NCBI GenBank assembly: GCA_002238825.1
Contig: MPNC01000006.1
Span: 1 to 64,000, forward strand
Source: SAR202 cluster bacterium bin87
GTDB taxonomy: Bacteria > Chloroflexota > Dehalococcoidia > Lucifugimonadales > UBA3495
Direction: 5' to 3'
Length of the DNA stretch: 64,000 nucleotides
The position numbers were made by a program, and so were the translations under genes. Shown here in pieces: positions 1,583 to 25,537 of the stretch; within the stretch, counting starts at the first letter, position 1; each line of letters begins with the position of its first letter. Under the pieces are notes generated by a model. The model made no database searches. It had not been told where the DNA came from and worked only from the letters and a program-made list of their open reading frames with translations.

Positions 1583-1617
1583 AAGAGGGCCGGCTCAATG
1601 AGCCGGCCCTCTTTTTC
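1583..1617 (+). terminator. Strong rho-independent terminator
   Basis: AAGAGGGCCGGCTC (1583-1596) pairs perfectly with GAGCCGGCCCTCTT (1600-1613) around a 3-base loop, and a T-run follows. It separates the small genes at 220-1554 from the methylase gene at 1805. Confidence 0.9.
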
Positions 1618-1804
1618 GTTCTCACCATCCCGGTTCTGCCGAGCGACAACGCGAGCCGCTCACTGAGCCGGCAACCCCGCCACACGCTACCCGGGACGGG
1701 CTGCTTGTTCACAACCGCCGGTATAACCCCGCACGCCGGAAAAAGACCAACGGTATCGCCGCCAGACGACGGACGATGCCAACTCAAAGACAGGAACTCC
1801 AACG

Positions 1805-3655
1805 ATGACCGACAACCCCCTGAACGCCGCCAACCGCGGCGTCTACATCAGCGACAACCTGCCGTTCCTCAAGAACCTGAACGACAGTTGCATTGACCTC
1901 GTCTGTATCGACCCGCCGTTCGCCAAGAACGAGACTTTTGGCCGCAAGAACGACCAAGCACCAGACCCGCTGAAGCCGGAGCTCACGCCGGAGGAACGGG
2001 CTACCGAGTTGGCGTTGCTGGGACGCTGGGGAATCAACAACCCCGACGAAGCAAACAAAGCAGGCATCGACTGGCCGGAGACACGCTACAAGGACTTCTG
2101 GTCTTGGGAAACCGATGTGCACGAGTCTTGGCTCAGCGACATCGAAGCCGACTACCCAGCCGTACATGCGTTGATCGAAGCCACCCGAATGGTGCACGGC
2201 GAGAGCACAGCGGCTTACCTGTGCTACATGGCGGTGCGCTTGTTCGAGATCCGTCGGGTACTGAAGGACACGGGCAGCCTGTACCTGCATTGCGACCACA
2301 CGGCGGGCGCATACCTCCGGCAACTGCTGGACGGGATTTTCGGGAGAGACAATTTTCAGAACAACATCGCCTGGAAAAGAACTTCGGGCAGATCCGACGC
2401 AACCCGATACGGACGGGTCCACGACACAATCCTGTTCTACTCCAAGTCCCCGAGATTCCACTGGGAAACACCGTACATCCCGCACGACCCAGAATACGTC
2501 GAGAGAGCTTACCGTAACGTTGACTCCATCGGAAGATGGAGGGCCGACCAACTCACCGCCGCAGGAACCAGAACCGGCCAATCAGGCGAACCCTGGAGAG
2601 GAGTCGACCCAGGAGCAAACTCCAACCACTGGCGTACACCCACAGCTGGAGGGATGAATGATTTCATCATTGAGAAACAACTCATCCCTGGATGGCCAGA
2701 AGGCTACCCAACTGTCCACGAACGCCTCGACGCCCTCGACAAAGCCGGTCTCATTTACTGGCCACCAAAAGGCAAGATACCCTGCCTCAAACGTTATCTC
2801 GAGTCCACCAAAGGTGTGGCCCTCGACGACATATTCACGGACATCAAACGCCTCGAAGCCAGTTCCGTAGAAAAAACCGGCTACCCCACCCAGAAGCCAG
2901 TGGCCCTCGCCGAGCGCATCATCAAGGCTTCCTGCCCCGAGGGTGGCGTCGTACTCGATTGCTTCGCCGGCTGCGCCTACGTGGCCGTTGCGGCGGAGCG
3001 CCTAGGCCGCGACTGGGTAGCCTGCGACATCAACGCACGTTCGTGGACGGTCTTCAAACGGCAGTTCAACAAGTCCCAGCTGATCTTGCTTCAATGCTTG
3101 GAGCCCATGGCAGTCAATAACCAGCAAATGAACCTGCTCGGCAACATCGTCACCGTCCACGGACCGAACCAACTGCCACAGGATACGATACGCACCGTCA
3201 CCACGCCAAACCCGTTGCCGCCGCCGAAACCACCAATCTGGAAGGAACCGGCCAGCGACATCCCGCGCGACGAAATGCTCCGCCACCTGCTGGAATTGTC
3301 CGGCTACCAAGCATGGTGCTGCGGCTTCGCTAACCGTATGCCAGACGGAACCATCATCAAGACAACCAGGAACTTCCACCTGGACCACATGGACCCGGTG
3401 TCCCGCGAGGGCAGCAGTCACCAGATCACGAACCGCGCGCCGCTCTGCATGGAGCACAACATCCGCAAAAGCAATCAGCGTCTGCACCTGGCCGAGTACC
3501 GCCAGCAGATCGCCAATGCAGGCGAACTCATGGTCCACGACCTCAGCAAACTAATCAACCTGTCCTACGCCCGCCACGAGGCGGAGAACCTATTGACCCA
3601 AGCCAGGATGGCGAAGGGTTTCCAATCGCGCCTGCCCTCGTCGAGGTCCAGCTAG
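1805..3655 (+). CDS. DNA methyltransferase fused to an HNH endonuclease domain
   Basis: This 616-residue protein joins two enzymes. The N-terminal about 420 residues are a SAM-dependent DNA amino-methyltransferase: DPPF catalytic motif near residue 35, HDTILFYSKS, PTQKPVALAERII, and the SAM-binding loop LDCFAGCAYVA near 385. The catalytic motif precedes the SAM motif, as in the beta class, and the usual GSGTT is replaced by GCAYV. After a Pro-rich linker, residues about 500-560 form an HNH nuclease (CCGF, LDHMDPVSR, NRAPLCMEHN). Methylation with a fused nuclease suggests restriction-modification or phage-type DNA handling. No separate restriction gene is adjacent. The start is supported by AGGA about ten bases upstream. 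Confidence 0.85.
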   Translation: MTDNPLNAANRGVYISDNLPFLKNLNDSCIDLVCIDPPFAKNETFGRKNDQAPDPLKPELTPEERATELALLGRWGINNPDEANKAGIDWPETRYKDFWSWETDVHESWLSDIEADYPAVHALIEATRMVHGESTAAYLCYMAVRLFEIRRVLKDTGSLYLHCDHTAGAYLRQLLDGIFGRDNFQNNIAWKRTSGRSDATRYGRVHDTILFYSKSPRFHWETPYIPHDPEYVERAYRNVDSIGRWRADQLTAAGTRTGQSGEPWRGVDPGANSNHWRTPTAGGMNDFIIEKQLIPGWPEGYPTVHERLDALDKAGLIYWPPKGKIPCLKRYLESTKGVALDDIFTDIKRLEASSVEKTGYPTQKPVALAERIIKASCPEGGVVLDCFAGCAYVAVAAERLGRDWVACDINARSWTVFKRQFNKSQLILLQCLEPMAVNNQQMNLLGNIVTVHGPNQLPQDTIRTVTTPNPLPPPKPPIWKEPASDIPRDEMLRHLLELSGYQAWCCGFANRMPDGTIIKTTRNFHLDHMDPVSREGSSHQITNRAPLCMEHNIRKSNQRLHLAEYRQQIANAGELMVHDLSKLINLSYARHEAENLLTQARMAKGFQSRLPSSRSS

Positions 3656-3689
3656 CAGGCGGAACATTTGACGCGGAACGGAACGCAGA

Positions 3690-4151
3690 ATGCCTGCTGA
3701 ACACACTGAGAAAATCGATGTCATGAGAAGATTGCGCTACTCGCACTTGAACATCGCCAAGGTCGATGCGATTTCGCTACTCCGATGCCTGCTCCGACCG
3801 GACGCGACAACGCCGCCAAAGCCGGCGCCAGACGACGAGCTCCAACGTCGGTACAACGCATCCGTGCTGCCGGCCCTCATCGGCTCGCACATCCCGCTGG
3901 GGCAACTGAAACGGCTGGCGGAAAAAGAACGGCCTGATGCCCGCCGGTTTTACCAACAGGCACAACGAGAAGCCGAGCAGTACCAGGAAACACTGAGTCG
4001 GGGGTACTTGAGCCGGGAAACGGCTTCGGACCGAGTACTCTGGGACCGGTCAGCCATCTTCGACTGCCGCACGGATCACGAAGCGGACCCGCCGGCGGGC
4101 CAGCCGCTCAAAGACCCGACGCCATTCCCCGAAGCAACCCCAACGCTGTAA
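3690..4151 (+). CDS. Hypothetical protein downstream of the methylase-HNH gene
   Basis: A 153-residue, mostly helical, charged protein starts 34 bases after the methylase-HNH gene on the same strand and is probably co-transcribed. It contains a long Gln/Glu-rich stretch (ARRFYQQAQREAEQYQ) and a disordered Pro-rich C-terminus. I do not recognise the family. Position suggests a specificity, inhibitor or accessory subunit of the methylase-HNH protein, but nothing in the sequence proves this. Confidence 0.55.
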   Translation: MPAEHTEKIDVMRRLRYSHLNIAKVDAISLLRCLLRPDATTPPKPAPDDELQRRYNASVLPALIGSHIPLGQLKRLAEKERPDARRFYQQAQREAEQYQETLSRGYLSRETASDRVLWDRSAIFDCRTDHEADPPAGQPLKDPTPFPEATPTL

Positions 4152-4292
4152 TGCGCTGCCTGTGGCACTACGTTCCCAGTCGCTGAAGCGTCCTGAGCCA
4201 GTCGGGCAGAAGACCGATGCGCAAGCCAAGACAACAGCCCAGCCAGCCCCGAATTCGGTGCACCACAGATTACGGATTTCGTACTGATGTCG

Positions 4293-4311
4293 CCTACTTG
4301 AACAATCCTAC
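4293..4311 (+). repeat. CCTACTTGAACAATCCTAC motif, copy 1
   Basis: First of four copies of a 19-base motif found in gaps of this island (others at 4527, 5575 on the minus strand, and 8179). The 440-base gap 4152-4592 that holds two copies shows no convincing gene. Confidence 0.6.
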
Positions 4312-4526
4312 CCATGCAGGCGGAAATTCCCCAAACGGCCATGGACCGGATGCTGCGTCTGCTGGCTGAACTACCCAAAAATGCGTAGCCGAACGTCATC
4401 GTCCAGATCTCGCAACCCCAAATGGGTAATCCGCAGCGCAGCACCATCACAGCAGACCCACGCAGAGGCAGCTACCGGATAAATCCACCAGATGAGCCCC
4501 ACGCGACGGATCCCGTCACCGAAGTC

Positions 4527-4545
4527 CCTACTTGAACAATCCTAC
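4527..4545 (+). repeat. CCTACTTGAACAATCCTAC motif, copy 2
   Basis: Identical to copy 1 over 19 bases. It is preceded by ACCGAAGTC, which also precedes the inverted copy at 5575-5593. The bases just after it form a small hairpin (CCTACTCAGTAGG). It lies 48 bases before the gene at 4593. Confidence 0.6.
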
Positions 4546-4592
4546 TCAGTAGGGAGGCAGGCCCAAGGCGTACCGGGAGAGCAAGCATCGCC

Positions 4593-5540
4593 ATGAACAC
4601 TGCAAGCAACGAAACAGCGCCAACGTCCAACCGCGGAAACATCCCCATGCCGAAGATACGTTACATCCCCCTACGCTTCACGCCGCAGCAGCCCAAGCCC
4701 GACGCCGGACTGGACGTGCTGGAGAGCGACCCCCGCATCTGGAACGTTACCTGGTTTCAAGAACCCAAGGACGAGAAGAGCACACTACGCCTGCTGAGCC
4801 TCGCCGAAACCGCTGTACTGCCCCACAGTGGCGAGTTCATCCGCTTCCACCTACCCGAGCACCTGTCCAACCTCATTGACGCAGTACCGACGTGGATGCG
4901 CAACGCCTACAGCCAGCTGCAACACGCCAACGACGGCGGCCAACGCTGGCAGATACAGCTCATGCTGCCCGCCGCCGACGGCCTCATCCACGACGACTGC
5001 GACAACCGCACACCCCTGAGCCGCATCACCTGCCCCACCTGCATCTACCGCATCGCCGAAGACCGCCGCCGCACACGCCAGCAGGAAGGGAACGCCGGCC
5101 CCCTGGGCATGCCCCAGCTCAGCCAGCGCGTCCCCGACGCCTACGCCCGCCTCGCGGAAGCTGAAATCGAGATAACCAAGCGCCCCATCAACAGAGCACC
5201 CAGCGAAAGGTACCGGGAGCCAGGGCCAGACCTGCGCCGGCGGTTCAATGAACTCGCCGACCAGTGGCAGGAAGAAACCGCGTTCATGTCTTCCACGCAC
5301 CAGGCACACCAGCATCCGGCCTACCAAGAAATCCTGGACTTGGGCTCTCCCGTCGTACGCCCCATGCTGGAAAGAATGCAGGAACAGCGTGGCCACTGGT
5401 TCAGTGCCCTGCAGCAGATCACTGGAGAATCGCTGGTGCGCGACGACGAACGCGGCCACATCCGTCAGATGGAACTGCGCTGGCTCGACTGGGGATGGCA
5501 AAACGGCCTCCTGCCGGTAAGCGAATCCAACGAAGCGTAA
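4593..5540 (+). CDS. Hypothetical protein with CxxC motif and conserved helical C-terminal domain
   Basis: This 315-residue protein has three parts. Residues about 25-150 are an unrecognised alpha/beta region. A CPTC motif near residue 150 may be half of a metal site. Residues about 220-310 (FNELADQWQEET, HPAYQEILDLG, HWFSALQQITGE, WLDWGWQNGLL) match a helical domain I have seen in many short hypothetical proteins of bacterial mobile regions, where it has no assigned function. It stands alone on the plus strand between two copies of the CCTACTTGAACAAYCC motif. Internal ATG at codon 19 (MPKIRYIPL) is an alternative start. Confidence 0.65.
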   Translation: MNTASNETAPTSNRGNIPMPKIRYIPLRFTPQQPKPDAGLDVLESDPRIWNVTWFQEPKDEKSTLRLLSLAETAVLPHSGEFIRFHLPEHLSNLIDAVPTWMRNAYSQLQHANDGGQRWQIQLMLPAADGLIHDDCDNRTPLSRITCPTCIYRIAEDRRRTRQQEGNAGPLGMPQLSQRVPDAYARLAEAEIEITKRPINRAPSERYREPGPDLRRRFNELADQWQEETAFMSSTHQAHQHPAYQEILDLGSPVVRPMLERMQEQRGHWFSALQQITGESLVRDDERGHIRQMELRWLDWGWQNGLLPVSESNEA

Positions 5541-5574
5541 GAACGCCGCAGCCGCATCGCTCACGCTAACCGAA

Positions 5575-5593
5575 GTCGGATTGTTCAAATAGG
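5575..5593 (-). repeat. CCTATTTGAACAATCCGAC motif, inverted copy
   Basis: Minus-strand copy of the 19-base motif, with two differences from copies 1 and 2. It lies just after the gene ending at 5540. The rest of the gap 5541-5905 holds nothing recognisable. Confidence 0.55.
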
Positions 5594-5905
5594 AGAGACC
5601 AAAGGCCGTGTCTGACAGATTCCGTCATCCTCGACGAGCGTAGTCCTATAAGCCTCCGCGGCTAAACGCCGCTACGTCGCCAGCGTGGCAACGCACGCGT
5701 GGGAACAGCTGATTCCGAGCCGTCCATTTCTCACGCCCGCAGCCGCATCAGGAACACCCGATGACGCCCTCAGACGCTCTCATTGCGCCGGGAACGCGGC
5801 AAGCCCACATTCGGGCCACCCGAAGGCCCCAACCCTCAATACAGGCTGTCTCAACGCGCGGCGCGGCAGACGAAACGAGCATCATCACCATTGCAAGGAT
5901 TCGAC

Positions 5906-7291
5906 ATGACCAACATCGCAAGACGCGCCGGCAAAGCGCGGTGCAACCTGTGCGGCGACGAGAAGAGCGCCACCCAGATGGGCAACCACATCGCCCAGGA
6001 ACTGAAGGCCGTCCAGCGCGCCGAACAATGGCGCCAGGAACCCATCGACATCAACAGCTTCCTCCACATCGAGATCCAACACCAGCGCGCCAAGCACTTC
6101 TGGATGCACCTGCTGGTGCCCCACGAAACCACACTCGGCCAGCTGGACGCCTTCCTGCGCACCGCCTGGCTGGAATGCTGCGGACACCTGTCCCGCTTCG
6201 ACTTCCACGGCCTCACGGCCAGCTCACCAGGCAGCCGGAAACCTGGTTTCCTCGCCTTCGATGACGACGCCTTCGATGAGGACGACGAAATCGACGATGA
6301 CGGCGAACTGCTCATCGACTGGAACACGCCCGCCATCAGGGCCATGCCGCCCGGCATGACCGGCATCCACGAGTACGACTTCGGCTCCACCACCACGCTG
6401 GACATCACCAGCCACCGCAGCCTGCGCCTCCGCCTGGAGGGCGACATCTTGCTCATCGCCCGTAACTCCCCCGTCGCCTGCGACGTATGCGAAAAGGAGC
6501 CGGCCCGAACACTCACACCGGTGCAAGGCGCTCTTGAAGACCCCGACGGTTGGCGACACCACGGCGCCATCTACGTGCCACTCTGCCAATCCTGCCCCCC
6601 GCCCCAACCCGATGACGACTCCGCCGATTGCACCGGAGAATGCGGGATCTGCGACGAGGCAGACGACGAAACGGCTGTGCCCATTCCCGTGGTGAACAGC
6701 CCGCGCCTCTACGACGCCGATTGCTTCCTAATTGACGAACTGCAAGAAGTCGCCCCAAGGAAGGGACGAACGACATGGCGAGAACACCACACCCGCAAAC
6801 ATGACGGATCAGGAGCAAATCATGGAACACGACCACTGCGAGAGCAACGACGACCTCCCCTCCTCCGCGGACGAAGAGACACATTCCTGCCCGGTCTGGA
6901 CCCCGTCCTCGACAACGTCGAACGGTGGCCCAACATCATGATCATGGACTCCCTGCTGGAATCCGCCGGCAGATCCACCGAAGACACACCGCCACCCGAG
7001 GCCATCATCAGAGCACTGGACGGCCTCGAAAAGCTCGCGCTGGCCAGAACACTGTGCGACAAGACCGGCGACCATCATAAGTACTTCGAAGGCGCCCCGG
7101 ACTGGACCTACACCCCCCGCGAAAGCGACGACGCGATGGCGGAACAGGGCGATGCCCGGCAGTTCACGGACGACACTGACGCGGTGGTTGCCGACGCCAC
7201 CCTGTCGTGGAACGACGGGAACGCGATTTTCATGATCGGCTACCTGCCCGGGAAGGGCACCCTGCTGGCCTACTTCGGGCCGAAACCGTAG
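5906..7291 (+). CDS. pRiA4b ORF-3-like protein with zinc motifs
   Basis: Starting at ATG 5906 (AAGGAT before it) this 461-residue protein opens with a CNLCG zinc motif. It then shows the plasmid pRiA4b ORF-3-like fold: FWMHLLVPHETTLGQLDAFL, then acidic stretches, then IHEYDFGSTTTLDI. More Cys pairs follow (CDVCEKE, CQSC, CTGECGIC). The C-terminal part (from about 6930) looks like an ordinary acidic protein. Between about 6775 and 6890 the frame becomes unusually Arg-rich, while a second frame starting at ATG 6822 with a perfect AGGAG site reads as an acidic protein (MEHDHCESNDDLPSS). The gene may therefore be two genes joined by frameshifts. Confidence 0.6.
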   Translation: MTNIARRAGKARCNLCGDEKSATQMGNHIAQELKAVQRAEQWRQEPIDINSFLHIEIQHQRAKHFWMHLLVPHETTLGQLDAFLRTAWLECCGHLSRFDFHGLTASSPGSRKPGFLAFDDDAFDEDDEIDDDGELLIDWNTPAIRAMPPGMTGIHEYDFGSTTTLDITSHRSLRLRLEGDILLIARNSPVACDVCEKEPARTLTPVQGALEDPDGWRHHGAIYVPLCQSCPPPQPDDDSADCTGECGICDEADDETAVPIPVVNSPRLYDADCFLIDELQEVAPRKGRTTWREHHTRKHDGSGANHGTRPLREQRRPPLLRGRRDTFLPGLDPVLDNVERWPNIMIMDSLLESAGRSTEDTPPPEAIIRALDGLEKLALARTLCDKTGDHHKYFEGAPDWTYTPRESDDAMAEQGDARQFTDDTDAVVADATLSWNDGNAIFMIGYLPGKGTLLAYFGPKP

Positions 7292-7322
7292 CCGGAGCCA
7301 GCAACAACAGCAAGGTAGGAAA

Positions 7323-7778
7323 ATGGTCACCAAAGAACGCCAACCCGCCACCCACGCCGACAGCCCAGAAGATCTGACTACCGAAACCACCAAACAGCGT
7401 CCGCCCATCGGGCAACTGCTCAAGACCCTCCGCGGAACCAAGACGCTCCGACAGGTGGAAGCCGACACCGGTATCACCAATGCCTATCTCAGCAACCTCG
7501 AAAGCGGCCTCAAGAAGCCGGGCATCCGGACACTGACCAAGCTCAGCCGCTACTACTCCGTACCCATTGACCACCTCATCCATGTCGCCGGACTGGAAGG
7601 AGATATTCCTCTACCAGCGGGCGAGGATTCCATCATGGACATCCAACGAGCCTTCGAATTCGTCGTCACCGACCCAAACGTGGCCCATTTTCACCACCCG
7701 GCCGACACCCTGCCGTTGGACATGCAGAAGTTCGTCGTCCAGATCTACCAGCACTACACCGGCAGGAAGCTCCTGTAA
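7323..7778 (+). CDS. XRE-family helix-turn-helix regulator
   Basis: This 151-residue protein has an XRE helix-turn-helix at residues about 29-85 (LRQVEADTGITNAYLSNLESG, then the LTKLSRYYSVP positioning helix) and a C-terminal helical domain (IQRAFEFVVTDP, MQKFVVQIYQHYTG). It is a paralogue of the regulator at 21872-22345: both end in the FVVQLYEHFTG-type segment, and both are followed within 20 bases by a serine recombinase gene. It probably controls that cassette. Here the recombinase is broken. Confidence 0.85.
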   Translation: MVTKERQPATHADSPEDLTTETTKQRPPIGQLLKTLRGTKTLRQVEADTGITNAYLSNLESGLKKPGIRTLTKLSRYYSVPIDHLIHVAGLEGDIPLPAGEDSIMDIQRAFEFVVTDPNVAHFHHPADTLPLDMQKFVVQIYQHYTGRKLL

Positions 7779-7795
7779 AGGCAGGCGAAGCGACC

Positions 7796-7996
7796 ATGAC
7801 GCCAACACCAACCAATACACGAAAAGCCGAGGAGTACATCCGCGTGTCCGGCCGTAGCCAGGCCGACAACTTCTCCCTCAGAAGCCAAGACCAGGACGTG
7901 CGAGACTACTGTGCCATTGAAGGTATCCCCTTCGACCGTATGTGGACTGACGTCGGCAGTGGGCTCTCCACCAAGACAGACACGCCAACCGAGTAG
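7796..7996 (+). pseudogene. Truncated serine recombinase (N-terminal fragment)
   Basis: Only the first about 60 residues of a serine recombinase survive. EEYIRVSGRSQ contains the nucleophilic serine, RSQDQDVRDYC is the usual second motif, and DVGSGLS the third; a TAG follows. The arginine motifs, the DNA-binding core, zinc ribbon and coiled coil are missing. It starts 17 bases after the XRE gene, the same layout as the intact cassette at 21872-24165. The 460 bases after it show no remaining recombinase segment. Confidence 0.8.
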
Positions 7997-8162
7997 TCAG
8001 CTTTGTATAGCACCTACCCACTACCTGTACTTTCCCTCAGACCATGAAAGAACGCCCGGAGAATCACCGTGTGCTATTGCTCGCCTGACGGCGACGTAGC
8101 CGGATATACCGGCTGAGGCTGATAAGACTGCTCGCATTGGGGGACTACGGAATCCGTCAGCG

Positions 8163-8504
8163 ATGGCTCCCGATTTCCCCTACTTGAACAACCCTACTTT
8201 GTTGACCCATTATCGGTTCTCCGCCGAGCCCAGTCAGTTGGAGAGTACTCCAACGCTCTCGTATGCGTCCGTGTGCGTCCTCCGAAATTGGAAACGACGG
8301 CACGAGATCGCCGTCGGGAGCTTTACGCACGCCTTGAAAAAAGAATCCGGACATCAATTGCCTCCGAACGCAGACACTACTTTAGCGGACTTGGTCGGCA
8401 TAAACACAAAGGATGAACGGGAAAGAGCCGCGTCGTTTTCGTCATTTTCTCTTGGTTTACTGGAAGCTCTTGATCACGGCGGCTATCTGGGTTTTGAGGT
8501 CTAG
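8163..8504 (+). CDS. Doubtful hypothetical protein
   Basis: A 113-codon frame that begins MAPDFPYLNNPT, where YLNNPT is encoded by the fourth copy of the 19-base repeat. It has no clear ribosome site, and its last 48 bases overlap the convergent gene ending at 8457. The composition is normal for a protein, but I see no domain. It may be spurious. Confidence 0.25.
   Translation: MAPDFPYLNNPTLLTHYRFSAEPSQLESTPTLSYASVCVLRNWKRRHEIAVGSFTHALKKESGHQLPPNADTTLADLVGINTKDERERAASFSSFSLGLLEALDHGGYLGFEV
8179..8197 (+). repeat. CCTACTTGAACAACCCTAC motif, copy 4
   Basis: Direct copy with one change from copies 1 and 2. It lies 183 bases after the broken recombinase gene. Confidence 0.55.
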
Positions 8505-16781: not shown

Positions 16782-18059
16782 TTACATGATCCCAAAACAA
16801 GCCTGCTCGACGCGATTCCGATTCTCAATCTGGAGTTGCACCACCCTTGGATCCACTACAAACCTACCGGCGATCTCCCCGATGTCGTAGCCTTCCTGTA
16901 CCATCGCCCGAACCGCTTCCACGGGTGCCAAAAACTCCGCCGCGAATGCACGGCCGGCCGCTTGCCGCTCCGCGCCATGCAACCGATTGACCACGGACGC
17001 CCCTTCCTCCGGAAAACAGACTGCATCCCCAATCGCCCGCGCCAGGTTGAAATTCTCGAACCATGGCGGGCCGTACTTCGGCTTCCGTAAATGGATGTGC
17101 ACCTCTGTTCCACGTGACACCACGCCGTCAACCCCAGATAATCCCTTCGACCACTCGAATGACGAGTTGCCCAGCTTCCCGGCTATGTTACACACCGAAT
17201 CGAACTCGTACCCTTCGCCGACCCCGATGCTCCGACGAATAGCCCGAGCCAGGCGGTACGCTGAACCCCAAACGCCTTCACCGGCACGGCGTTCACGAAG
17301 TACGGAGTCAACTGCCTCGGTAGCGGCCCGTAACTCAGGCAACCTCCAACGGGGCTCCACCTTTCCGGCAGCTTCCTCCACTGAAGCGAGTACCTTGTGG
17401 CGACCTTCTGGACGCGCCGGGGTAACGCCAGCCAGAAATTCTGTGAGCGGAGTGCCAGTCAGCACTCCTCCGGCCTGAAAAATGAAATCCGCATCGGCGT
17501 TGTCCATGGCGTAGGGATCCAATCCCAAAGCACCAGCAGCTTCGCAAAACGATGCCTGCTCGGGATCTTGGCGTGATTCACTTACCCGTTTCCACCGCAG
17601 CTGAACTTCGCTCCGTTCGATGCCCTCGCCCGACAAACGATCAACCACATCCCCGATGAATCCCGATAAATGGAACTCCGCCTCTTCGCGTGAAATGGTT
17701 TCAGTTTCGACCCGCCAGAAACGCACCCCGGGGTTCTCACAGCTCATCTGCTCGCCAGATACCTCAAACACCGAGCCATCGCAACCAAAGCTCAGACAAG
17801 GAAGGACGAAACCGGTCCCATAAGCCCAGATCGAGCGCTTGCAGTCTCTACCTCCAAAGATGGACCACCAATCCGTCGCTATGCCCTCGGCCAAATGTAC
17901 CGCTGGCACAACCACGGACTCATAAGACTCATGGGACGCATCATCCCAGTGCGAGCAAGCATTTGAATCCCCGACGACAATCCGCAGATCGCACATGGAG
18001 GCACGCTCTTCAGCAGAAGCGTTGGGCAAGCCGTCAATCCATTCGACCAAAAACTTCAT
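16782..18059 (-). CDS. ImmA/IrrE-like protein lacking the HExxH zinc motif
   Basis: The C-terminal about 110 residues of this 425-residue protein resemble the IrrE/ImmA metallopeptidase family: NFNLARAIGDAVCF, VNRLHGAERQAAGRAFAAEF, IGEIAGRFVVDPRVVQLQIEN. Where active members have HExxH, this one reads ARAIGDA, so zinc binding and proteolysis are unlikely. The N-terminal 300 residues are unrecognised; LGLDPYAMDNADADFIF is a motif I associate with this subfamily. The ATG at 18059 has AGGAG eight bases upstream and overlaps the preceding gene by 26 bases, so the two are co-translated. IrrE-like proteins often act with a regulator in stress or immunity switches. Confidence 0.7.
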   Translation of the reverse strand: MKFLVEWIDGLPNASAEERASMCDLRIVVGDSNACSHWDDASHESYESVVVPAVHLAEGIATDWWSIFGGRDCKRSIWAYGTGFVLPCLSFGCDGSVFEVSGEQMSCENPGVRFWRVETETISREEAEFHLSGFIGDVVDRLSGEGIERSEVQLRWKRVSESRQDPEQASFCEAAGALGLDPYAMDNADADFIFQAGGVLTGTPLTEFLAGVTPARPEGRHKVLASVEEAAGKVEPRWRLPELRAATEAVDSVLRERRAGEGVWGSAYRLARAIRRSIGVGEGYEFDSVCNIAGKLGNSSFEWSKGLSGVDGVVSRGTEVHIHLRKPKYGPPWFENFNLARAIGDAVCFPEEGASVVNRLHGAERQAAGRAFAAEFLAPVEAVRAMVQEGYDIGEIAGRFVVDPRVVQLQIENRNRVEQACFGIM

Positions 18060-18453
18060 CTCTGTACTCCTTGCTGATTGGCCAACCCTTGTACTCTCCG
18101 AGACGCGGGTTGACCACGAGACCCATCCAGAACTGTCCATCAGCTTCATACCAAACCTTCTTGGGAAAACTCTGATCAGACTCGTAGAAACGACATTGGT
18201 CAGCTCGAATCGCGGCTTTCACCCATTCGGTCGCCCTCACCTGGTCCGACCTTTTGGTCAACGGACAAATGGTCGTAGTTTCCTTCCCAGGCCGCCCCAC
18301 ACGACCGCCGGACAACTGACGCCCCATCGGCAACCCGCCCCACCACCTCACCAGCTTGTGCTCATCGCTACCGACATACACCGCACGCTCGGCTAAATCA
18401 GCCAATTCGGCCGACGTACGCGCCGGAATTCTGATCTGATTCGGACGACGCAA
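18034..18453 (-). CDS. Hypothetical partner of the IrrE-like protein
   Basis: This 139-residue basic protein starts at TTG 18453 after a GGAAG site. Its end overlaps the IrrE-like gene by 26 bases. It contains SDQVRATEWVKAAIRADQCR and a strand-rich C-terminus (PKKVWYEADGQFWMGLVV, YKGWPISKEYRDEVFG). I do not recognise a named family. Translational coupling suggests the two proteins act together. Confidence 0.6.
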   Translation of the reverse strand: MRRPNQIRIPARTSAELADLAERAVYVGSDEHKLVRWWGGLPMGRQLSGGRVGRPGKETTTICPLTKRSDQVRATEWVKAAIRADQCRFYESDQSFPKKVWYEADGQFWMGLVVNPRLGEYKGWPISKEYRDEVFGRMD

Positions 18454-18903
18454 AATGGCTTCCGCTTACTTGGCCTTGCGCCTGATTACATGAACCGTTC
18501 GCCTGATTCGCATCATCGGGCCACAGGCACCTTTCCATGCTTCACGCATGCAACGACGGATTGGCATCAGCCAGAATGTTCAGAAATAACCAACGCCGCC
18601 ATCGGAAGTTCTCGACACGGAACTTCAACCGACCCCCGCTCTCGTTCACGCAGCGGGCCGGACGGAAACCGGCGGTCATCGCAAGCGGCCGGCAACCCAT
18701 GTTTCTCCTTTCGAGTGCACGTCGTAATCAATGCGTCAGCACTCCGCCCCTCAGTTTCTCTCCGAGGGGCAATAATCGGCTCCGATGCCACGGAGCCTAC
18801 CGGACGGGCATTGCCGGGCACTCCGTCGAGCGATGACCCGGTCAGGACACAATTTTACCTTTCCAGACTCCGCGCGTAAAGAAAACAGCACTCAACGTCG
18901 ATC
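18454..18903. other. Gap of 450 bases with two adjacent hairpins
   Basis: No convincing gene. GCCCCTC (18746-18752) pairs with GAGGGGC (18764-18770), and seven bases later GGCTCCG (18778-18784) pairs with CGGAGCC (18791-18797). Neither is followed by a T-run. They could be part of a structured RNA or simply leftover mobile sequence. Confidence 0.4.
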
Positions 18904-19119
18904 ATCCACCCCTTCGCCGACGGCAACGCTAGGGCCACTCGGGCCATGGTCACCCGGCACCTGGTGCAGCACGACTACCTGCCCATCGTCGTCACCCGCG
19001 ACGACCGCAACGACTATATCGATGCTCTTGAAGCGGCCGACGACGGTGACCTGAACCCGCTGGTGAAGTTCGCCTCAAGGCTGCACCGACGTTCGACGTT
19101 GCAGGCCATATCAACGTAA
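18904..19119 (+). pseudogene. Second fic remnant (core to C-terminus)
   Basis: One open frame reads IHPFADGNARATRAMVTRHL, HDYLPIVVTRDDRNDYIDAL, ADDGDLNPLVKFASRL and ends in TAA. It corresponds to 16352-16570 of the first fic remnant and is very similar at the DNA level over about 150 bases. The catalytic GNGR is changed to GNAR. No N-terminal part lies upstream. The two remnants flank the IrrE-like gene pair. Confidence 0.7.
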
Positions 19120-19375
19120 CGTTTGCCCATCTTCTCCGATTTCAGAGAGTATCGAACGCTCTTTCCCACAACAGCCGGCGGAGAAGGCCGAGTCTCTCCG
19201 CCGCGTAACTCCGCCCGCATACCCGACGGCCCAGACGGCTCGCCCGACCGGGTGAATGAGCAACGGTAGTCGACACGTAACGCGGTCATCCAGCCGCGCA
19301 ATCAGTGCCCCCACACAGGGACAGGCGTGTACCTGTTCCTGTTCGTTTTTGCACCACCAACAAGCAGGAGTACTA

Positions 19376-19801
19376 ATGGCAACGTCCTATATCATGCCCC
19401 TCGGCTTCGTCGAACGGCCCACCGAGACCGGTGCCACCTTCATCCTGACTAACCCCGAAGATTCCCTCAACCTCACACTCGACACGCCAATCACCATCTG
19501 GCGCTACTCCCCCGAGCAACTCGCCATCGGGAGGCTGCGCGGCCGGGTCAACGCCGTCGGGTACACCACCGCCACCTTCACTACGGTCGAGTACAGCAAC
19601 GGACCGAGGTGGCCGGAAGACCTGTCTATCATCCGACCCGCCGCACCGGTATTCCTCGCGCTGGAAGAATCCTTCGAACCAGACCCAGAACGAAAGCTGA
19701 CACCAGACCAGGCTGAAGCCATGCGCCGGCTGGCACTGCGGTACGCCGAACTAGCGGGAACAACGGCCGTCAAAACGACTGAAGACAGGTCCCCCGTTTA
19801 G
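19376..19801 (+). CDS. Conserved hypothetical protein
   Basis: This 141-residue protein starts with a textbook ribosome site (GCAGGAG, six bases before ATG 19376). It reads MATSYIMPLGFVERPTETG, FILTNPEDSLNL, TITIWRYSPEQLAIGRLRGR, VGYTTATFTTVE, a beta-rich pattern with a Pro-rich acidic tail. I do not know a function; the pattern recalls small hypothetical proteins common in mobile regions. Its TAG lies within the terminal repeat of the IS1380 remnant that begins at 19796, so the element supplies the stop codon and the original C-terminus may have been different. Confidence 0.65.
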   Translation: MATSYIMPLGFVERPTETGATFILTNPEDSLNLTLDTPITIWRYSPEQLAIGRLRGRVNAVGYTTATFTTVEYSNGPRWPEDLSIIRPAAPVFLALEESFEPDPERKLTPDQAEAMRRLALRYAELAGTTAVKTTEDRSPV

Positions 19802-20471
19802 CCCCAATCCACCGAAGACGTAATTGTCGCGGGGTGCTGAAGGGGTAAGAAAGTGCTCCCGGCTTCGGGGATAATGGTTTTTGAAACAGAAAACCACCCT
19901 GAAACAAGGAGCACCCAACGGATGCTACCACGAACGACCCTGATCGCATCCAAATCGCCTTCGACGATCACCGCCTGGTGGCCAATGCTGGGCTGATCCT
20001 GCCAATCACTTTGGCCCATCATCTGGGACTGGGCGAACCGGTGGCAACCACCAAGACCCTGCGGCGGCGCTTCTTCTCCCTGGCCGGACGCATCACCCGC
20101 AAGGCACGCCGCCTCACCCTTCATCTTCCCCAGGGCTGGCCCTGGCAGAACCAGTTCAACTCCGCCCTCGCCAAACTGCGCGCTCTGCCACTCCCTTCCT
20201 GACCCCAACCGCGGCGTCTGACCCGTCCGCCAGACTATCAACAGGCTTGGCTGTCCCGCGTCAGGCCGGTCCCTGCGTGTCTCCTGCTGCAACCCGCCCG
20301 CTGATCTCGCCCCTCGCCGGGACTGCGGACCGTCAGAACCCCCTTCGCGTCGCTGACACACTCGGCACCCGTCCCAATCTATCGGCACCAGCGCCCCGCG
20401 GTCTCATTTCCACGCCTCTCATCCTGGGTCCAACCAGCCGGCCGCATCCCCTCGGTGGATTCGGGTTTAGG
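19796..20471 (+). mobile_element. IS1380-family element with large internal deletion
   Basis: The transposase frame (about 19921-20202) joins the family's N-terminus (RIQIAFDDHRLVANAGLILP, LAHHLGLGEPV) directly to its C-terminus (SLAGRITRKARRLTLHLP, WPWQNQFNSALAKLRALPLPS). The whole catalytic middle is missing. The ends are imperfect inverted repeats: TTTAGCCCCAATCCACCGA at the left and, reversed, CCTAAACCCGAATCCACCGA at the right (20452-20471), 14 of 20 bases alike. It is about 676 bases and could move only with a transposase supplied elsewhere. Positions 20203-20450 are its noncoding 3' part. Confidence 0.7.
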
Positions 20472-20588
20472 AACGTTACAATCCAGCGAACCGACGGACC
20501 TGAAAGTCCACCTACCCAGGCAGGCCCGTCGCTTGACGAACCTACCAAATTGGCACAACATTAACAACAGGCAACCCCAAGGATCATC

Positions 20589-21272
20589 ATGCTTGAACCA
20601 ACAGGCACCCGAGACCATGCGCGGGCCCTCTACGGCATCGCCCGCTGCTCCCAGTGCGGAACACCTTTGCTCAAAATCGGCACCAACTACTGCTGTCCCA
20701 ACTTCCCATACAGCCTTACGAACACCTGCGACACGCAGCACATCAACGCGGAGAAGCTGCTACACCTTGTGGTGGGGCAGCTCATAAACCGGGTCATCAA
20801 CGAACAGACCACGACCCAGCTGGTGGATGCCATCCAGAGCGAGTACGGGGAGAAGTCGCGTCGCGCCAAGGACAACCTTGACCGCACCGAAGCCGCCATC
20901 ATGGAACTCTACGAACTCAGAGAACAGGTGGCACATCCAGCGCGGCTAGGCGACGACACCTACTCGGAAGTAATCGACCGAGTGGAGGACATCGACCAGC
21001 AAACCGTCGGCCTGTCTTACGAGGCCCGCCTGTTCCGCAAGGAAATCGACGCCTACGACTTCGTCACGGACGAGGTTCGCATCAGAACCAATGCCGTTGA
21101 CCCGGCAACCTACCTCGACGGAGCGTCGCCGGACGACACCCGAGACCTGCTGAACCTGTTCGTCAAGAGCGTGGAAGTCGGTAACGACAGCATCGTCATC
21201 CACTACACAGCCCAGACCCCGCGCCCGCCTCAATTGAACGTGAACCCAGCCGACGAGCTGCCATTGCACTGA
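20589..21272 (+). CDS. Stand-alone serine recombinase C-terminal (zinc ribbon, coiled coil) module
   Basis: This 227-residue protein has the three parts that end a large serine recombinase, but no catalytic domain. They are a zinc ribbon (RCSQCGTPLL, NYCCPN, CDTQ), a coiled coil (RRAKDNLDRTEAAIMELYEL) and a terminal strand domain (DPATYLDGASPDDTRDLL, FVKSVEVGNDSIVIHY). AAGGATC precedes the ATG at 20589, so it is independently translated. It lies 600 bases before the intact XRE-recombinase cassette, on the same strand. The coiled coil of these enzymes mediates subunit contacts that control integration versus excision. A free module could modulate the full recombinase, or be a decayed copy. Confidence 0.7.
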   Translation: MLEPTGTRDHARALYGIARCSQCGTPLLKIGTNYCCPNFPYSLTNTCDTQHINAEKLLHLVVGQLINRVINEQTTTQLVDAIQSEYGEKSRRAKDNLDRTEAAIMELYELREQVAHPARLGDDTYSEVIDRVEDIDQQTVGLSYEARLFRKEIDAYDFVTDEVRIRTNAVDPATYLDGASPDDTRDLLNLFVKSVEVGNDSIVIHYTAQTPRPPQLNVNPADELPLH

Positions 21273-21346
21273 ACACCCGCGAAAGCTCCACACCGCCCTG
21301 CTGGAGCCTCATGTGTTCACGAGAAACCGCTGCCCGTCAGCTTCGG

Positions 21347-21724
21347 CTACCAGAAAGGAATGCCGTCGGGATCAACATCCGCACGGTCACCATCCCTGTC
21401 CTCAAAGGACAGCGCCGGATCAGCACTCCCGTCAGTCACCTTTACGTCCATGGTTTCGGAGTGAGCAACACTGACGCGGTCTCCGGCTACCTCTGACTGA
21501 TAGCCCTTGGCCACGTCGGGCATATCCTCAAAATCCCTGACAATTTCCACGTCAAACTCCGGCAGCTTCATCTTCTCCTGGAGATCTGCCAGCTGCTTGA
21601 ACCCGCGCTGGGACACAAGCCGCGTGATCATGCGCAGGCCTTCCTGCGTGAGGCGGTCTCGTCTGTTATTTTCGTCGCCGTCTTCGTTATAAAAAACGCG
21701 CGCGTCGGATTTTGGGTCACTCAT
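21347..21724 (-). CDS. Small acidic hypothetical protein divergent from the XRE gene
   Basis: This 125-residue acidic protein (FYNEDGDENNRRDRLTQEGL, then an Asp-rich end) faces away from the XRE regulator at 21872, with a 147-base shared promoter region. Divergent genes next to a repressor are often its targets. No domain is recognised, and the strong negative charge could suit a DNA mimic or an excision/regulatory factor. That is speculation. Confidence 0.55.
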   Translation of the reverse strand: MSDPKSDARVFYNEDGDENNRRDRLTQEGLRMITRLVSQRGFKQLADLQEKMKLPEFDVEIVRDFEDMPDVAKGYQSEVAGDRVSVAHSETMDVKVTDGSADPALSFEDRDGDRADVDPDGIPFW

Positions 21725-21750
21725 TGCTTCGTGTTACCATAGATACGCAA

Positions 21751-21766
21751 GGCCGTGTTCACGGCC
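21751..21766. promoter_or_regulatory. Inverted repeat in the divergent promoter region
   Basis: GGCCGTG-TT-CACGGCC is a perfect 7-bp inverted repeat between the divergent genes at 21724 (minus) and 21872 (plus). It is a candidate operator for the XRE regulator. A TATAAAT-like box at 21825-21831 could be the -10 of the XRE gene. Confidence 0.4.
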
Positions 21767-21871
21767 ATGAATTCTTACCTCTATCTCGGACCGCGCATCG
21801 GACAGCCTCACGGCTAAATGCCCGTTATAAATACGCACTTTGAATTGTAACATACTGCCCAAATCGTCGGG

Positions 21872-22345
21872 ATGGGGAACATGTCACTAAATCGTTGGGA
21901 AAACGTCCAAACGGGGACCGAAGGTGCGAAACAGCACCGCGACGCCCGTGACCACGGGCACGAGTTCACTTCAGTAGGCGATCTGCTGCGCTGGTTACGG
22001 GGAGAACGGTCGCTCCGACAGGTACAGGAAGACACAGGCATCACCTACACGTACCTTTCGAACATCGAACGCGGAAACAAACTCCCCGGCGAGAAAGTGC
22101 TGACGAAGCTCGCCGACTACCACAATATGCCTCGAGGCGAACTGCTCGACATGGCGGGAATCGACAAAAGCGCTGACGCCGACCTCCACTTCTCGAACGC
22201 GGACATCAGACGCAGCTTCCAGTTCGTGATGCAAGATCCCAGCCTGAACGGTTACCCGAAACCCTCAGAAGACGTGCCAATCGAAACACAACGATTCGTC
22301 GTGCAACTATATGAGCATTTCACTGGATTGCGGCTACTGGCGTAG
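21872..22345 (+). CDS. XRE-family helix-turn-helix regulator of the recombinase cassette
   Basis: A 157-residue regulator with an XRE helix-turn-helix at residues about 45-105 (LRQVQEDTGITYTYLSNIERG, KVLTKLADYHNMPRGELL) and a C-terminal helical domain (RRSFQFVMQDPSLNG, QRFVVQLYEHFTGLRLL). Its stop is 14 bases before the serine recombinase start, so the two form an operon. It is a paralogue of 7323-7778. Likely role: repressor of its own promoter and so of the recombinase. Confidence 0.85.
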   Translation: MGNMSLNRWENVQTGTEGAKQHRDARDHGHEFTSVGDLLRWLRGERSLRQVQEDTGITYTYLSNIERGNKLPGEKVLTKLADYHNMPRGELLDMAGIDKSADADLHFSNADIRRSFQFVMQDPSLNGYPKPSEDVPIETQRFVVQLYEHFTGLRLLA

Positions 22346-22359
22346 GAGGCAGTTGAACA

Positions 22360-24165
22360 ATGCCACCGGCAAGAACCAACACAATGATTCCGAACGGCGC
22401 ACTTCCGATGAGCACGCTTCCGGGCGACGCGCTTCCGGCCAGCGAACTGCTGCCGGCCTTCGCCTACGGACGGGTCTCCGACGAAGATCACCAAGACGAG
22501 GTCTTGACCATAGACACTCAACTGAGGCGAGCCGAGGAAGCCGCAGCAAGGTATGGCTTCTACATCGTCAAGTGGTTCCGAGAGACTGGGACCGCCACCA
22601 ATGACGACAGGTCGCAGTTCCAAGCCATGATCGTCGAGGCCATAGCTCCAGGCAGTGGCATTAAGGCAATATGGTTCTACGACCAATCCAGATTCGTGAG
22701 GAACGAGACGGACTTTTTCCATTACGCCAAAGTCCTGACCGACAGCGGCGTCCAGCTCGGCTCCGCGCGATTCGGTCTTTACGGAGAAGACGAATACTCC
22801 AGAATGAACTGGGGCATGACGGCGCTGATGGACGCAAGATTTTCCCGCGACGTCGCCCGCAGAACCCGTGATATGCAGTACGGCGCCACCCGGGAGGGTT
22901 ATTACCTCAGCGGCCACGCCCCCTTCGGCTACGAAAAGTACAAGGTTACCGTAGGGAGAAGGGAGCGCACCAAACTCAAACCGAATCTTGACCAATGGCA
23001 CCACGGCGTCAAGATCTATGAGATGGCACTGAACAAGACCACTCCCATGGTGATAGCACAATACATGGATAGCATGGGCGTTCTCACCAACCGGGGCAAA
23101 CGATGGACTCGCAGTTCGGTCTTGGCATTTCTCCGCAACCCGACCAACGCCGGGAAAACATACCGCGGCCTCCGGCAGCATAGTAGGGTAATCCCAAACA
23201 ACGACGACATAGTCTGGTGCGACAACGCGCACGAAGGCATGGTCACCCCGGAGCAGCACGACCAGGTACTGAAATACATAGCCGAGAGGAGGTCCCCAAG
23301 AAAGGGACCGCGTAGTTATTCAAGTCCCAACTTGCTCAGCAAGCGAATCATGTGCGCGCACTGCGGTTCCCCAATGATTGTTCAAACTTCACCCCAAGGG
23401 CCAAAGCTCCGATGCCGGAAAAAGAAGGACATGGGCGCTCACACTTGCCCTTCCAAGAACGTCCCGCTGGACCTTGTGATGTCAACCATAATCAGAAGGT
23501 TGCTCGACACGATCATCACCGAGGAAACCCTTGAACAGCAGATCAAGGCGGTCGCGCAAGCGAACCAGTTGCTGCTGATGGAGCAGCAGACGAAACGGGC
23601 AGAAATCAAGAAGAATACGACGCGCTTGGAGCGGCGGATCAAAAACTTGACGAATGCCATCGCGGATGACGGCCCAGATGAACAATACTACGCCGACAGG
23701 CGAGAATACCGTGCCCAATTGGATCAACTGAACGCAGAGATGCAGGAAATAGATTCCGTCATGGGCGACCACCTGGACTTCCTGAACCAGCCTGAGCGCA
23801 TCATATCCAATGCTCTCGACATCAGGACCTACCTGGAATCGGACGACCGGCAGACGGTTCGAAATCTCCTCCAGTCATTCATCCAAAAAGTGACCATTGA
23901 CAATGAGTGGCGGGGCACCATCTACTACACCGTCCCGTTGCCCAGCGATTCGGCGGCCGCCGTATCTGACGTTCAGGGAGTTAGCTTCGAAAAAAAAGGC
24001 CGCGAAAAAAATAAGTGTCTTTTAGAGATACTCACCACCATGATGTTCTGCCGCTTCTGGATGTCCGGTGAAAAAGTCATTGCGAGCGAAGCGTGGCAAT
24101 CTCGTTGGGGCAACGGCGCGTCTTCTGGCAACGAGATCGCCACGTCGCTGCACTCCTCGCGATGA
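22360..24165 (+). CDS. Large serine recombinase (site-specific integrase)
   Basis: This protein catalyses integration or excision through a serine-DNA intermediate. The resolvase domain includes AYGRVSDEDHQDE (nucleophile Ser), IKAIWFYDQSRFVRNETDFF and FSRDVARRTRDMQYGATREG. It is followed by the recombinase core (WTRSSVLAFLRNPTNAGKTY), a zinc ribbon (MCAHCGSPMIVQT, LRCRKKKDM, HTCPS), a coiled coil of about 60 residues, and the terminal DIRTYLESDDRQTVRNLL domain. AGGAGG precedes the ATG at 22360. The last about 55 residues, after FEKKGREKNKCLL, are encoded by a 36-bp sequence repeated in the capsid gene and by a palindromic element. The original stop seems to have been lost at the junction. 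Confidence 0.93.
   Translation: MPPARTNTMIPNGALPMSTLPGDALPASELLPAFAYGRVSDEDHQDEVLTIDTQLRRAEEAAARYGFYIVKWFRETGTATNDDRSQFQAMIVEAIAPGSGIKAIWFYDQSRFVRNETDFFHYAKVLTDSGVQLGSARFGLYGEDEYSRMNWGMTALMDARFSRDVARRTRDMQYGATREGYYLSGHAPFGYEKYKVTVGRRERTKLKPNLDQWHHGVKIYEMALNKTTPMVIAQYMDSMGVLTNRGKRWTRSSVLAFLRNPTNAGKTYRGLRQHSRVIPNNDDIVWCDNAHEGMVTPEQHDQVLKYIAERRSPRKGPRSYSSPNLLSKRIMCAHCGSPMIVQTSPQGPKLRCRKKKDMGAHTCPSKNVPLDLVMSTIIRRLLDTIITEETLEQQIKAVAQANQLLLMEQQTKRAEIKKNTTRLERRIKNLTNAIADDGPDEQYYADRREYRAQLDQLNAEMQEIDSVMGDHLDFLNQPERIISNALDIRTYLESDDRQTVRNLLQSFIQKVTIDNEWRGTIYYTVPLPSDSAAAVSDVQGVSFEKKGREKNKCLLEILTTMMFCRFWMSGEKVIASEAWQSRWGNGASSGNEIATSLHSSR
24031..24066. repeat. 36-bp direct repeat, copy 1 (candidate attachment site)
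   Basis: Exact match over 36 bases to 24279-24314 inside the capsid gene; flanks differ. Core: ACCATGATGTTCTGCCGC. It lies within the last codons of the recombinase frame. Confidence 0.75.
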
Positions 24166-24166
24166 C
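24076..24166 (+). repeat. Palindromic element family 1, copy A (no outer ends)
   Basis: Inner palindrome of family 1: GTCATTGCGAGCGAAGCG at the left and the inverted form ending CTCCTCGCGATGAC at the right. The outer CTCACGCGTACCC ends are absent. It separates the recombinase end from the capsid gene end and supplies the recombinase stop codon (24163-24165). Confidence 0.75.
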
Positions 24167-24196
24167 AGCGCGGCCATCGCAAGACGCCGACGGTCA

Positions 24197-25537
24197 TTAC
24201 ACCGTGATGTTGTACTGCAGCGCCGTATGCGTCGCCGTCGATCGCGCGCCGGTGCGTTCCATGAAGGCCAGGCGCATGCTCACCACCATGATGTTCTGCC
24301 GCTTCTGGATGTCCCGCGTCGTCTCGATCATCAGCTCGCGGCGGAACCCGAGCCGCCACTGCGTCCGGTTCACCGCCAGCAGTCGCCCCTTGGTGTTGCT
24401 GGCGCCTCCGTCGCTCACCTTGCCGTCGGCGTCCGACTGCGCCATCTGCTCCGACACGATCACGGGGATGCCGTCCACCTGGGCCAGTTGCCCGTTGAGC
24501 AGCGTCGCCTGCGGGCCCAGCTTGTCCAGCGTGCGGAACTCGCCGATGGCCAGCGACTTGATGTAGGTGCCCACGTCGGCGATGTAGGCCAGTTCCGATG
24601 GGCGGACGCCGTACTTGCCGAGGAGACCCCGCGCCTCGTTGAACATGTCGGCGCTGGGCGCCGCGGAGTGGTTGTTGCCCTGCGTCGTGTTGTCGACCAG
24701 CGGCAGGTGCAGGAGCCCGTCGAATCCGACCAGCCAGTGCGCCTTGCCTGCCGTGGACGCGGCAAGGGTCGCGCCGTCGGCGTTGATGTTGTTCTGCAGG
24801 GTCGTGTCCGCGTTCAGCAGCACGTCGTCGATGACCTCCACGGCGTTGCGCACCAGCGTGCTGCGCACCTCCGCCGCCATGGCGATCACCGCGTCCTCCT
24901 CCAGCGTCAGCGACCACGGAACCTCGGCAACCAGCTCGTGGGCCGTGAGCGTCTGCCGGCCGGTGGTGAGCGCGGTCTCGGTGGTGGCGGTGTTCTCCGT
25001 GCCGGGATACCAGGACACGTTGCCCAGCTGCAGCGGGATTTCGAAGGGGTTGGTCGGCATGTCCACGCGGGTGAACAGGCCGGCCACGTGGGTGTCCACG
25101 TTGATGCCCGCCCACAGGGCCGCCGCCTCGCCGGTGGCGACGAGCTCATCGCCCGTGCCGGCGGTGGTGCTGTCCATGGCCGCCTTCAAGTTGGCCTGCC
25201 AGTCCTCCAGCGCCCGCGGGTTCACATCGCCCGGCTCGCGCTGCTGGGCCGCCAGCACGCTGCGCACGCAGGCCAGGTCCAGCGCGTCCATCCCCTGGTA
25301 CTTGCCGAAGGGGACGCGCGGACGGTCGCCGACCGCTGCTCCGCCGGCATAGCGGGCCAGCATGGCCTGCTTCTCGCCCGACCGCTGCTTCTCGGTCAGC
25401 TCGCCCACGGCCCGGCTGAGCCGCTCCATTTCCTCGCGGAGCGGCGGCAGGTCCGCGTCCATCCGCTGCCGGTAGAACTCGCGCACCTCCGCGACCTCGT
25501 TCTTGATTGTTTCCAGTTCCCATGTTGAAAGCGTCAT
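24197..25537 (-). CDS. HK97-type phage major capsid protein
   Basis: This 446-residue protein builds phage or phage-like shells. It has the N-terminal helical scaffold-like delta region (ETIKNEVAEVREFYRQRM, LREEMERLSRAVGELTEK). The HK97 core follows: VDTHVAGLFTRVDMPTNPFE, TAHELVAEVPWSLTLEEDA, NAVEVIDDVLLNADTT, PSELAYIADVGTYIKSL, VDGIPVIVSEQMAQS, WRLGFRRELMIETTRDIQKR. ATG 25537 has AAGGAG about 12 bases upstream; an earlier in-frame start would only add residues encoded by a palindromic element. It follows the prohead protease on the same strand. No terminase, portal or tail genes are present in the window. The codons for DIQKRQNIMVVS are part of the 36-bp repeat. Confidence 0.9.
   Translation of the reverse strand: MTLSTWELETIKNEVAEVREFYRQRMDADLPPLREEMERLSRAVGELTEKQRSGEKQAMLARYAGGAAVGDRPRVPFGKYQGMDALDLACVRSVLAAQQREPGDVNPRALEDWQANLKAAMDSTTAGTGDELVATGEAAALWAGINVDTHVAGLFTRVDMPTNPFEIPLQLGNVSWYPGTENTATTETALTTGRQTLTAHELVAEVPWSLTLEEDAVIAMAAEVRSTLVRNAVEVIDDVLLNADTTLQNNINADGATLAASTAGKAHWLVGFDGLLHLPLVDNTTQGNNHSAAPSADMFNEARGLLGKYGVRPSELAYIADVGTYIKSLAIGEFRTLDKLGPQATLLNGQLAQVDGIPVIVSEQMAQSDADGKVSDGGASNTKGRLLAVNRTQWRLGFRRELMIETTRDIQKRQNIMVVSMRLAFMERTGARSTATHTALQYNITV
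24279..24314. repeat. 36-bp direct repeat, copy 2 (inside the capsid gene)
   Basis: Second copy of the 36-bp repeat, 248 bases from the first. Here it encodes DIQKRQNIMVVS near the C-terminus of the capsid protein, whose reading frame continues intact to its stop at 24197. Confidence 0.75.

Follow-up and report, generated by a model that had tools for sequence, protein, structure and literature searches.

The stretch of DNA analysed here (the window) comprises the first 64 kb, from base 1, of contig C45 (MPNC01000006.1; 242,634 bp) of SAR202 cluster bacterium bin87, a draft genome of 4.96 Mb in 67 contigs with an estimated contamination of 4.8%. The beginning of the window very probably belongs to a mobile island that was inserted by its own large serine recombinase (LSR) into the 3' end of a major capsid gene. 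The attachment site of the island (attP) would lie inside the LSR gene, so that integration splits the integrase into an N-terminal part (intN), located in the window, and a C-terminal part (intC), located on contig C12 of the same genome, while an exact 36-bp repeat marks the right-hand junction (attR). This reading is carried by the two junctions, the palindrome at attP, the empty site seen in relatives, the integrase frame that stays open across the rejoined ends, two further split integrases and the conservation of intC, all as read from the assembled sequences. The features involved are as follows (window coordinates unless a contig is named).

1..24030, no strand: right-hand part of the island, from the analysis of attL and attR
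C12:89283-130759: left-hand part of the island, from the same analysis
22360..24030, + strand: intN, the N-terminal 557 codons of the LSR (resolvase, recombinase, zinc-ribbon and coiled-coil region), from Pfam and the frame across attP
24013..24036, + strand: left arm of attP, the TAAGTGTCTTTTAGAGATACTCACC region, with 17 of 24 positions mirroring the arm on C12
24031..24041, + strand: 11-bp core CTCACCACCAT common to attL and attR, with the symmetry centre AC at 24037-24038, from comparison of the junctions
24031..24165, + strand: host-encoded chimeric tail of the LSR frame (core, capsid antisense, REP element) of 45 codons, with the stop at 24163-24165, from the reading frame
24042..24066, + strand: the half of attR that comes from the host, 25 bp of the capsid gene (antisense) and remainder of the 36-bp repeat, identical to 24290-24314
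24067..24196, no strand: sequence joining attR to the intact capsid gene, made of 9 bp, a repetitive extragenic palindromic (REP)-like element at 24076-24167 and 29 bp, from sequence comparison
24267..24314, - strand: attB within the capsid gene, uninterrupted (site of the second 36-mer together with its flank on either side), from sequence identity
24197-25537, - strand: HK97-type major capsid gene, intact, 446 aa, whose 3' end is the target (PF05065; PHROGs major head protein)

The 36 bp at 24031-24066 (copy 1) are identical to those at 24279-24314 (copy 2), 248 bp apart. No such repeat is expected by chance (0 in 100 dinucleotide shuffles), and the 36-mer occurs only in these two copies genome-wide, even when up to three mismatches are allowed. 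An earlier reading of this DNA from its letters alone (the sequence-only reading) had reported this exact repeat, correctly in sequence and position, and had proposed it as an attachment site with the copies as the ends of the element. An attachment site is indeed present, but the 36-mer was rejected as its core, which is 11 bp long, the other 25 bp being capsid flank. Nor do the two copies delimit the element: only copy 1 is one of its junctions (attR), copy 2 being an uninterrupted attB, and attL lies at C12:89272 (core at C12 89272-89282). The same reading had also asked for a copy at the island's left end; no third 36-mer occurs there, because attL and attR have only the core in common, but the core and the capsid 3' end are both present.

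On C12, the order is the next gene of the capsid cluster (284 aa, head-tail adaptor in PHROGs), a spacer, the capsid 3' end, CTCACCACCAT, and then the non-capsid ACGTATCCCTAAAAGACATG. The capsid piece (C12:89193-89282) covers only the last 30 residues, with 100% protein identity to the intact gene. A search with the capsid protein across 40 relatives and the own genome found a single locus in 12 of 13 same-genus genomes (84-95% identical; one of these split over two pieces), and, L044 apart, the capsid gene adjoins the next gene in every one of the 11 loci, same-genus or neighbouring, where both genes were read. Since the capsid 3' end and the next gene on C12 are neighbours in relatives, the element was inserted within the capsid gene, with C12 as attL and the window as attR. 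The C12 spacer resembles that of relative G012, and the C12 side is therefore the ancestral arrangement. In the joint on the window side, the REP-like element belongs to a type with dozens of copies in the own genome, and the final 29 bp had no match elsewhere in 14 genus genomes.

Serine integrases use symmetric attP arms around a short core. When the two island ends are rejoined, they give TGTCTTTTAGAGATACTCACCACCATACGTATCCCTAAAAGACA, an imperfect palindrome centred on the AC at 24037-24038; a symmetry as good as its 17 mirrored positions of 24 was reached in 3 of 200,000 permutations, and a separate test gave 1 in 5,000. The island measures at least 65 kb; this is a lower bound only, as comparison of the contig ends showed no overlap that would join the end of C12 to the start of C45.

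The LSR frame (22360-24165, + strand) encodes resolvase, recombinase and zinc-ribbon domains (PF00239, PF07508 and PF13408, all above cutoff), with positions Y7, R9, S11, R82 and R85 of the catalytic region conserved in a 12-sequence alignment. This domain set, together with attL and attR both being read and empty sites in relatives, identifies it as a large serine recombinase. As the sequence-only reading had described, the frame passes through copy 1 and stops inside the REP-like element, so its C-terminus is chimeric. Its suggestion that an attachment site inside the recombinase gene would alter the protein on integration also holds, as the frame read across attP gives a different C-terminus: across the rejoined site it continues for 190 more codons without a stop, to C12:89844, for a total of 747 aa. 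The added part, intC, contains six CxxC motifs in three GLCxxC...CxxC zinc-knuckle repeats. An equally long opening appeared in 32 of 20,000 shuffles, and no in-frame ATG, GTG or TTG occurs before codon 138; with this long open frame and no early start, intC is not easily a separate gene. No match to intC was found in the PDB, nor among plasmids and phages.

Contigs C12 and C17 each encode a further LSR in the same setting (zinc-ribbon protein, helix-turn-helix (HTH) protein, LSR), and both of these genes are split. In island 2, intN (C12:20921-22548) and intC (C9:59287-58433) are separated by insertion into a dispersed repeat, with the other flank traced by gene order in relative G010. Its attP is AAATTCTTTTGGACAACCGTATC-CC-GATACGGTATTCCAAAAGAATTT, with 21 of 24 positions mirrored (0 in 100,000 permutations). 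Its LSR frame runs on into an intC of 284 codons, giving a fused protein of 827 aa. In island 3, intN on C17 ends at a CRISPR array, and its intC, on C26, lies against an array built of the same repeat, with genes for Cas1 and Cas5 alongside. The two halves (C17:9478, L034, and C26:1660, L072, of the own genome, G000) are both cut after base 18 of the CRISPR repeat GGTTCCCCCGCACGCGCGGGGATAGACC; the cuts keep to the 61-bp spacing of the array, and 7 full repeats stand on each side. The shared cut base and array phase therefore indicate one CRISPR repeat as the attB of island 3. Here the LSR frame continues into an intC of 194 codons (fused, 754 aa). A fourth intC (C18:24068-23310, L071) lies beside another dispersed repeat, and no intN partner for it was found among the fetched sequences. 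The four intC proteins of this genome are homologous and can be aligned, and residues just past the junction (K6, F10) are conserved, upstream of any start codon.

Alternative accounts of the split gene were weighed against this evidence. It is improbable that intC is an independent small gene that abuts attL, next to an LSR which merely lacks a stop before attP and gains random tails. Such a gene would accord with the separate zinc-knuckle proteins that exist elsewhere (L221), with the host ATG codons that integration of island 1 places in frame upstream of intC, and with the distant LSRs of the class whose frames likewise extend past the att site and into tRNA genes of the host. However, the LSR and intC frames match in all three islands with no stop between them (about 1 in 27 by chance), the intC of island 1 has its first possible start so late, and the residues after the junction are conserved among the four proteins. 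An assembly artefact, in which chimeric contigs produce apparent junctions, is very improbable: the number of contigs and the estimated contamination would allow it, but three independent islands agree in having attP arms that mirror each other, integrase frames that join up and host flanks that either lie side by side in relatives or make up a single CRISPR repeat, which is not expected of chance chimeras. Least probable of all is an origin unrelated to integration, with the 36-bp repeat produced by local duplication or bounding a tiny element of 248 bp. The short distance between the copies, and the 130-bp joint with its REP element between them, would suit such an origin, but the attP arm at which copy 1 ends has its mirror image on C12, next to the remaining half of the capsid target, and recombinase-free relatives have a single uninterrupted capsid gene. 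As a full account, local duplication is refuted by attL on C12.

Other observations weigh against insertion of the island by a self-splitting integrase. The circle is deduced from ends on two different contigs, and the history of the capsid ends from four nucleotide differences. The symmetry of attP in island 3 is weak (13 of 24 positions; 1,254 of 100,000 permutations). The best Pfam matches of the intC domain (E 0.0057 and 0.048) are below cutoff, and outside the own genome the domain occurred once, in the Chloroflexota metagenome-assembled genome RHO3_bin_54, at a REP element. A role of intC in integration is a prediction from sequence.

The intact capsid gene had already been called a puzzle in the sequence-only reading, and the puzzle is real: the capsid 3' end is present twice, in two slightly different versions. 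The end at attL and that of the intact gene differ at three of 92 aligned bases and in the stop codon, leaving the protein unchanged. As these differences are only synonymous or in the stop codon, two functional alleles, of which one was interrupted and the other acquired or retained, fit better than a recent local duplication. Most likely, the intact capsid gene derives from a second, slightly different functional allele (by replacement or rescue), and the 36-bp stub at attR is the remainder of the interrupted capsid gene. For the intact capsid gene only, a less likely account, though one that deserves consideration, is that the host already had, downstream of the intact gene, a second and partial copy of the capsid 3' end before integration, and that this copy served the island as a decoy attB. 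This order of pieces requires no repair event, and tandem capsid 3' ends are known at the same locus in genome G028. However, differences that are all synonymous or in the stop codon are unlike those of a recent duplicate or an unselected fragment, the downstream spacers of the two capsid ends are unrelated, and the duplication in G028 is a plain 523-bp tandem repeat that includes the start of the next gene. In G028 itself (L042:4599-6170), this unit of capsid 3' end and start of the next gene forms a tandem triplication; repeated integration was considered as the origin of its capsid ends and was rejected in favour of plain tandem duplication.

For the island inserted by the LSR, the following mechanism can be proposed. 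As read from the rejoined ends, the circular form carries the whole LSR gene, whose product of 747 aa consists of an ordinary LSR of 557 aa and about 190 aa ending in the three zinc-knuckle repeats, and this full-length protein would perform the integration of attP with attB. Recombination at the 11-bp core cuts the gene into intN, extended by 45 host codons in the window, and intC on C12, without a start codon of its own. In the integrated state, intN would keep the standard LSR domains and lose the basic zinc-knuckle tail, and integration may therefore not be readily reversed unless helped. Reversal would need either a directionality factor, for which the free-standing zinc-ribbon/coiled-coil protein and the HTH protein of the module are candidates, or full-length enzyme from an incoming circle. 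The directionality of a serine integrase can change by fusion of its C-terminus to a directionality factor (PMC5737554), which makes such an effect of the tail plausible and is not evidence for the present islands. A broader possibility, which we hold only tentatively, is that, with the tail present in the circle alone, the physical state of the DNA decides whether the enzyme integrates (with tail) or is locked or competent for excision (without it). Such enzymes would make up a bacterial class of self-splitting serine integrases, to which DsiB and many LSRs of the Dehalococcoidia type that read into tRNA genes or ssrA would belong.

No close relatives of the LSR were found in the family (50 genomes) or in the viral contigs and genome contigs searched. 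LSRs of about 26% identity occur in 32 of the 393 genomes of the class that were searched. At 29 loci of these class relatives (L077-L105), the LSR frame runs antisense into a complete tRNA gene, with the stop inside or beyond it, in 22 cases, and these loci suggest that a frame crossing attP is common in this LSR clade. A search for the 3' end of the free circle in three complete relatives (G078, G114 and G254) found no clear attL.

In integrase genes of the phiC31, Bxb1 and A118 type, the stop codon belongs to the gene itself and adjoins attP, whereas here attP lies within the coding sequence. The domain order of intN and the inverted-repeat arms of attP around a short core are those of these large serine integrases (PMC3783163, PMC3556126). 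The gene organisation is instead like that of the suicidal (SSV-type) integrases, in which attP also lies within the integrase gene and integration produces intN and intC; these are tyrosine recombinases, stated in a 2021 review to be exclusively archaeal (PMC8371274). The present integrase, a large serine recombinase of a Chloroflexota bacterium, is thus alike in organisation and not a member of that type, and its catalytic domain is carried by intN, with intC as an added zinc-knuckle domain, whereas the catalytic domain of the SSV type is on intC. A precedent is DsiB, the ssrA-specific serine recombinase of Dehalococcoides, whose gene overlaps the att site at its 3' end with the stop codon in host DNA and, as its authors suggested, is perhaps fully functional only on the circular element; its target is ssrA with a 20-bp repeat, and the 3' end in the circular form was left unresolved (PMC3146451). 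Here too the integrase stop lies beyond the att site (24163-24165, in host DNA), as it does in the 22 of 29 class relatives that end in tRNA genes. However, the target is the capsid gene and not ssrA, no tRNA or tmRNA being present in the window, and the end in the circular form was read in three islands. Moreover, the six-gene DsiB module (DsiA, RecF-like, ParB, Mom and a large protein with an RNA-polymerase domain) is not matched by the module found here. Helper-embedded satellites, which ride on a prophage, likewise place a mobile island in a phage-type late (structural) gene, but they share one integrase clade and use lambda-like late genes (PMC10111431), whereas here the capsid gene belongs to a conserved chromosomal cluster of the genus and an intact copy is present. 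Beyond the hint from DsiB, no report of a self-splitting serine integrase was found in the paper collection consulted, which is incomplete.

The integration module consists, in order, of an open reading frame (ORF), a zinc-ribbon protein, a small ORF, an HTH protein and the LSR. The three middle genes are located as follows.

20589..21272, + strand: free-standing zinc-ribbon/coiled-coil protein, similar to the C-terminal half of the LSR and kept in the module, from sequence comparison
21347..21724, - strand: small divergent ORF, from the gene call, with no Pfam match
21872..22345, + strand: HTH regulator, present in all three split-integrase islands (PF01381/PF13560)

The free-standing zinc-ribbon/coiled-coil proteins (window 20589-21272, C12:19104-19793, C17:12206-12904 and window 220-894) are 28-29% identical between islands and precede each split LSR by two or three genes; they are candidates for a partner of the LSR or a directionality factor. 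The copy at 220-894 forms, with 7323-7996, the remnant of a second module inside the island, where an HTH gene is followed by the start of an LSR truncated after 67 codons. The cargo of the island includes several genes of defence type, namely a type IIG restriction enzyme-methyltransferase, a PtuA-like ATPase, a DNA methyltransferase, a MazF-like toxin and a Dsr1-like fragment, whereas the island parts tested showed no recognisable genes for conjugation or virions; it looks like a mobile defence island. On its left-hand part (C12:95465-107004; L032, L045), a tandem run of at least seven related genes (each about 505-523 codons long, with local similarity of 45-90%) had no PADLOC match. A repeat of 91-96% identity (window 1-400, C17:29205-29605 and C20:14189-14501) lies at the ends of C45 and C17, and is the probable cause of the assembly breaks inside islands.

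On the host side, the gene after the capsid gene in the window encodes a prohead protease. Protease, capsid, head-tail adaptor and tail genes (window 24197-26642 and C12:87801-89083) form a single-copy chromosomal cluster kept across the genus, and neither portal nor terminase was seen adjoining it; it is possibly a domesticated prophage or a cluster resembling a gene-transfer agent. Elsewhere in the window, another REP-like element (31729-31830) is apparently in frame within a gene for an MmeI-type restriction-methyltransferase (29990-33181).

Integrases that split their own gene had been described as a peculiarity of archaeal tyrosine recombinases, and the same organisation is found here in bacterial serine recombinases. 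The question raised in 2011, namely where such integrase genes of Chloroflexota end, is answered for the present relatives. Serine integrases are widely used in genome engineering, and three natural attP/attB pairs with a removable C-terminal domain offer material for testing the control of integration versus excision. That unrelated serine recombinases of bacteria show this organisation three times in one genome, each time at a different kind of target, suggests that an integration switch encoded in DNA topology evolved convergently.

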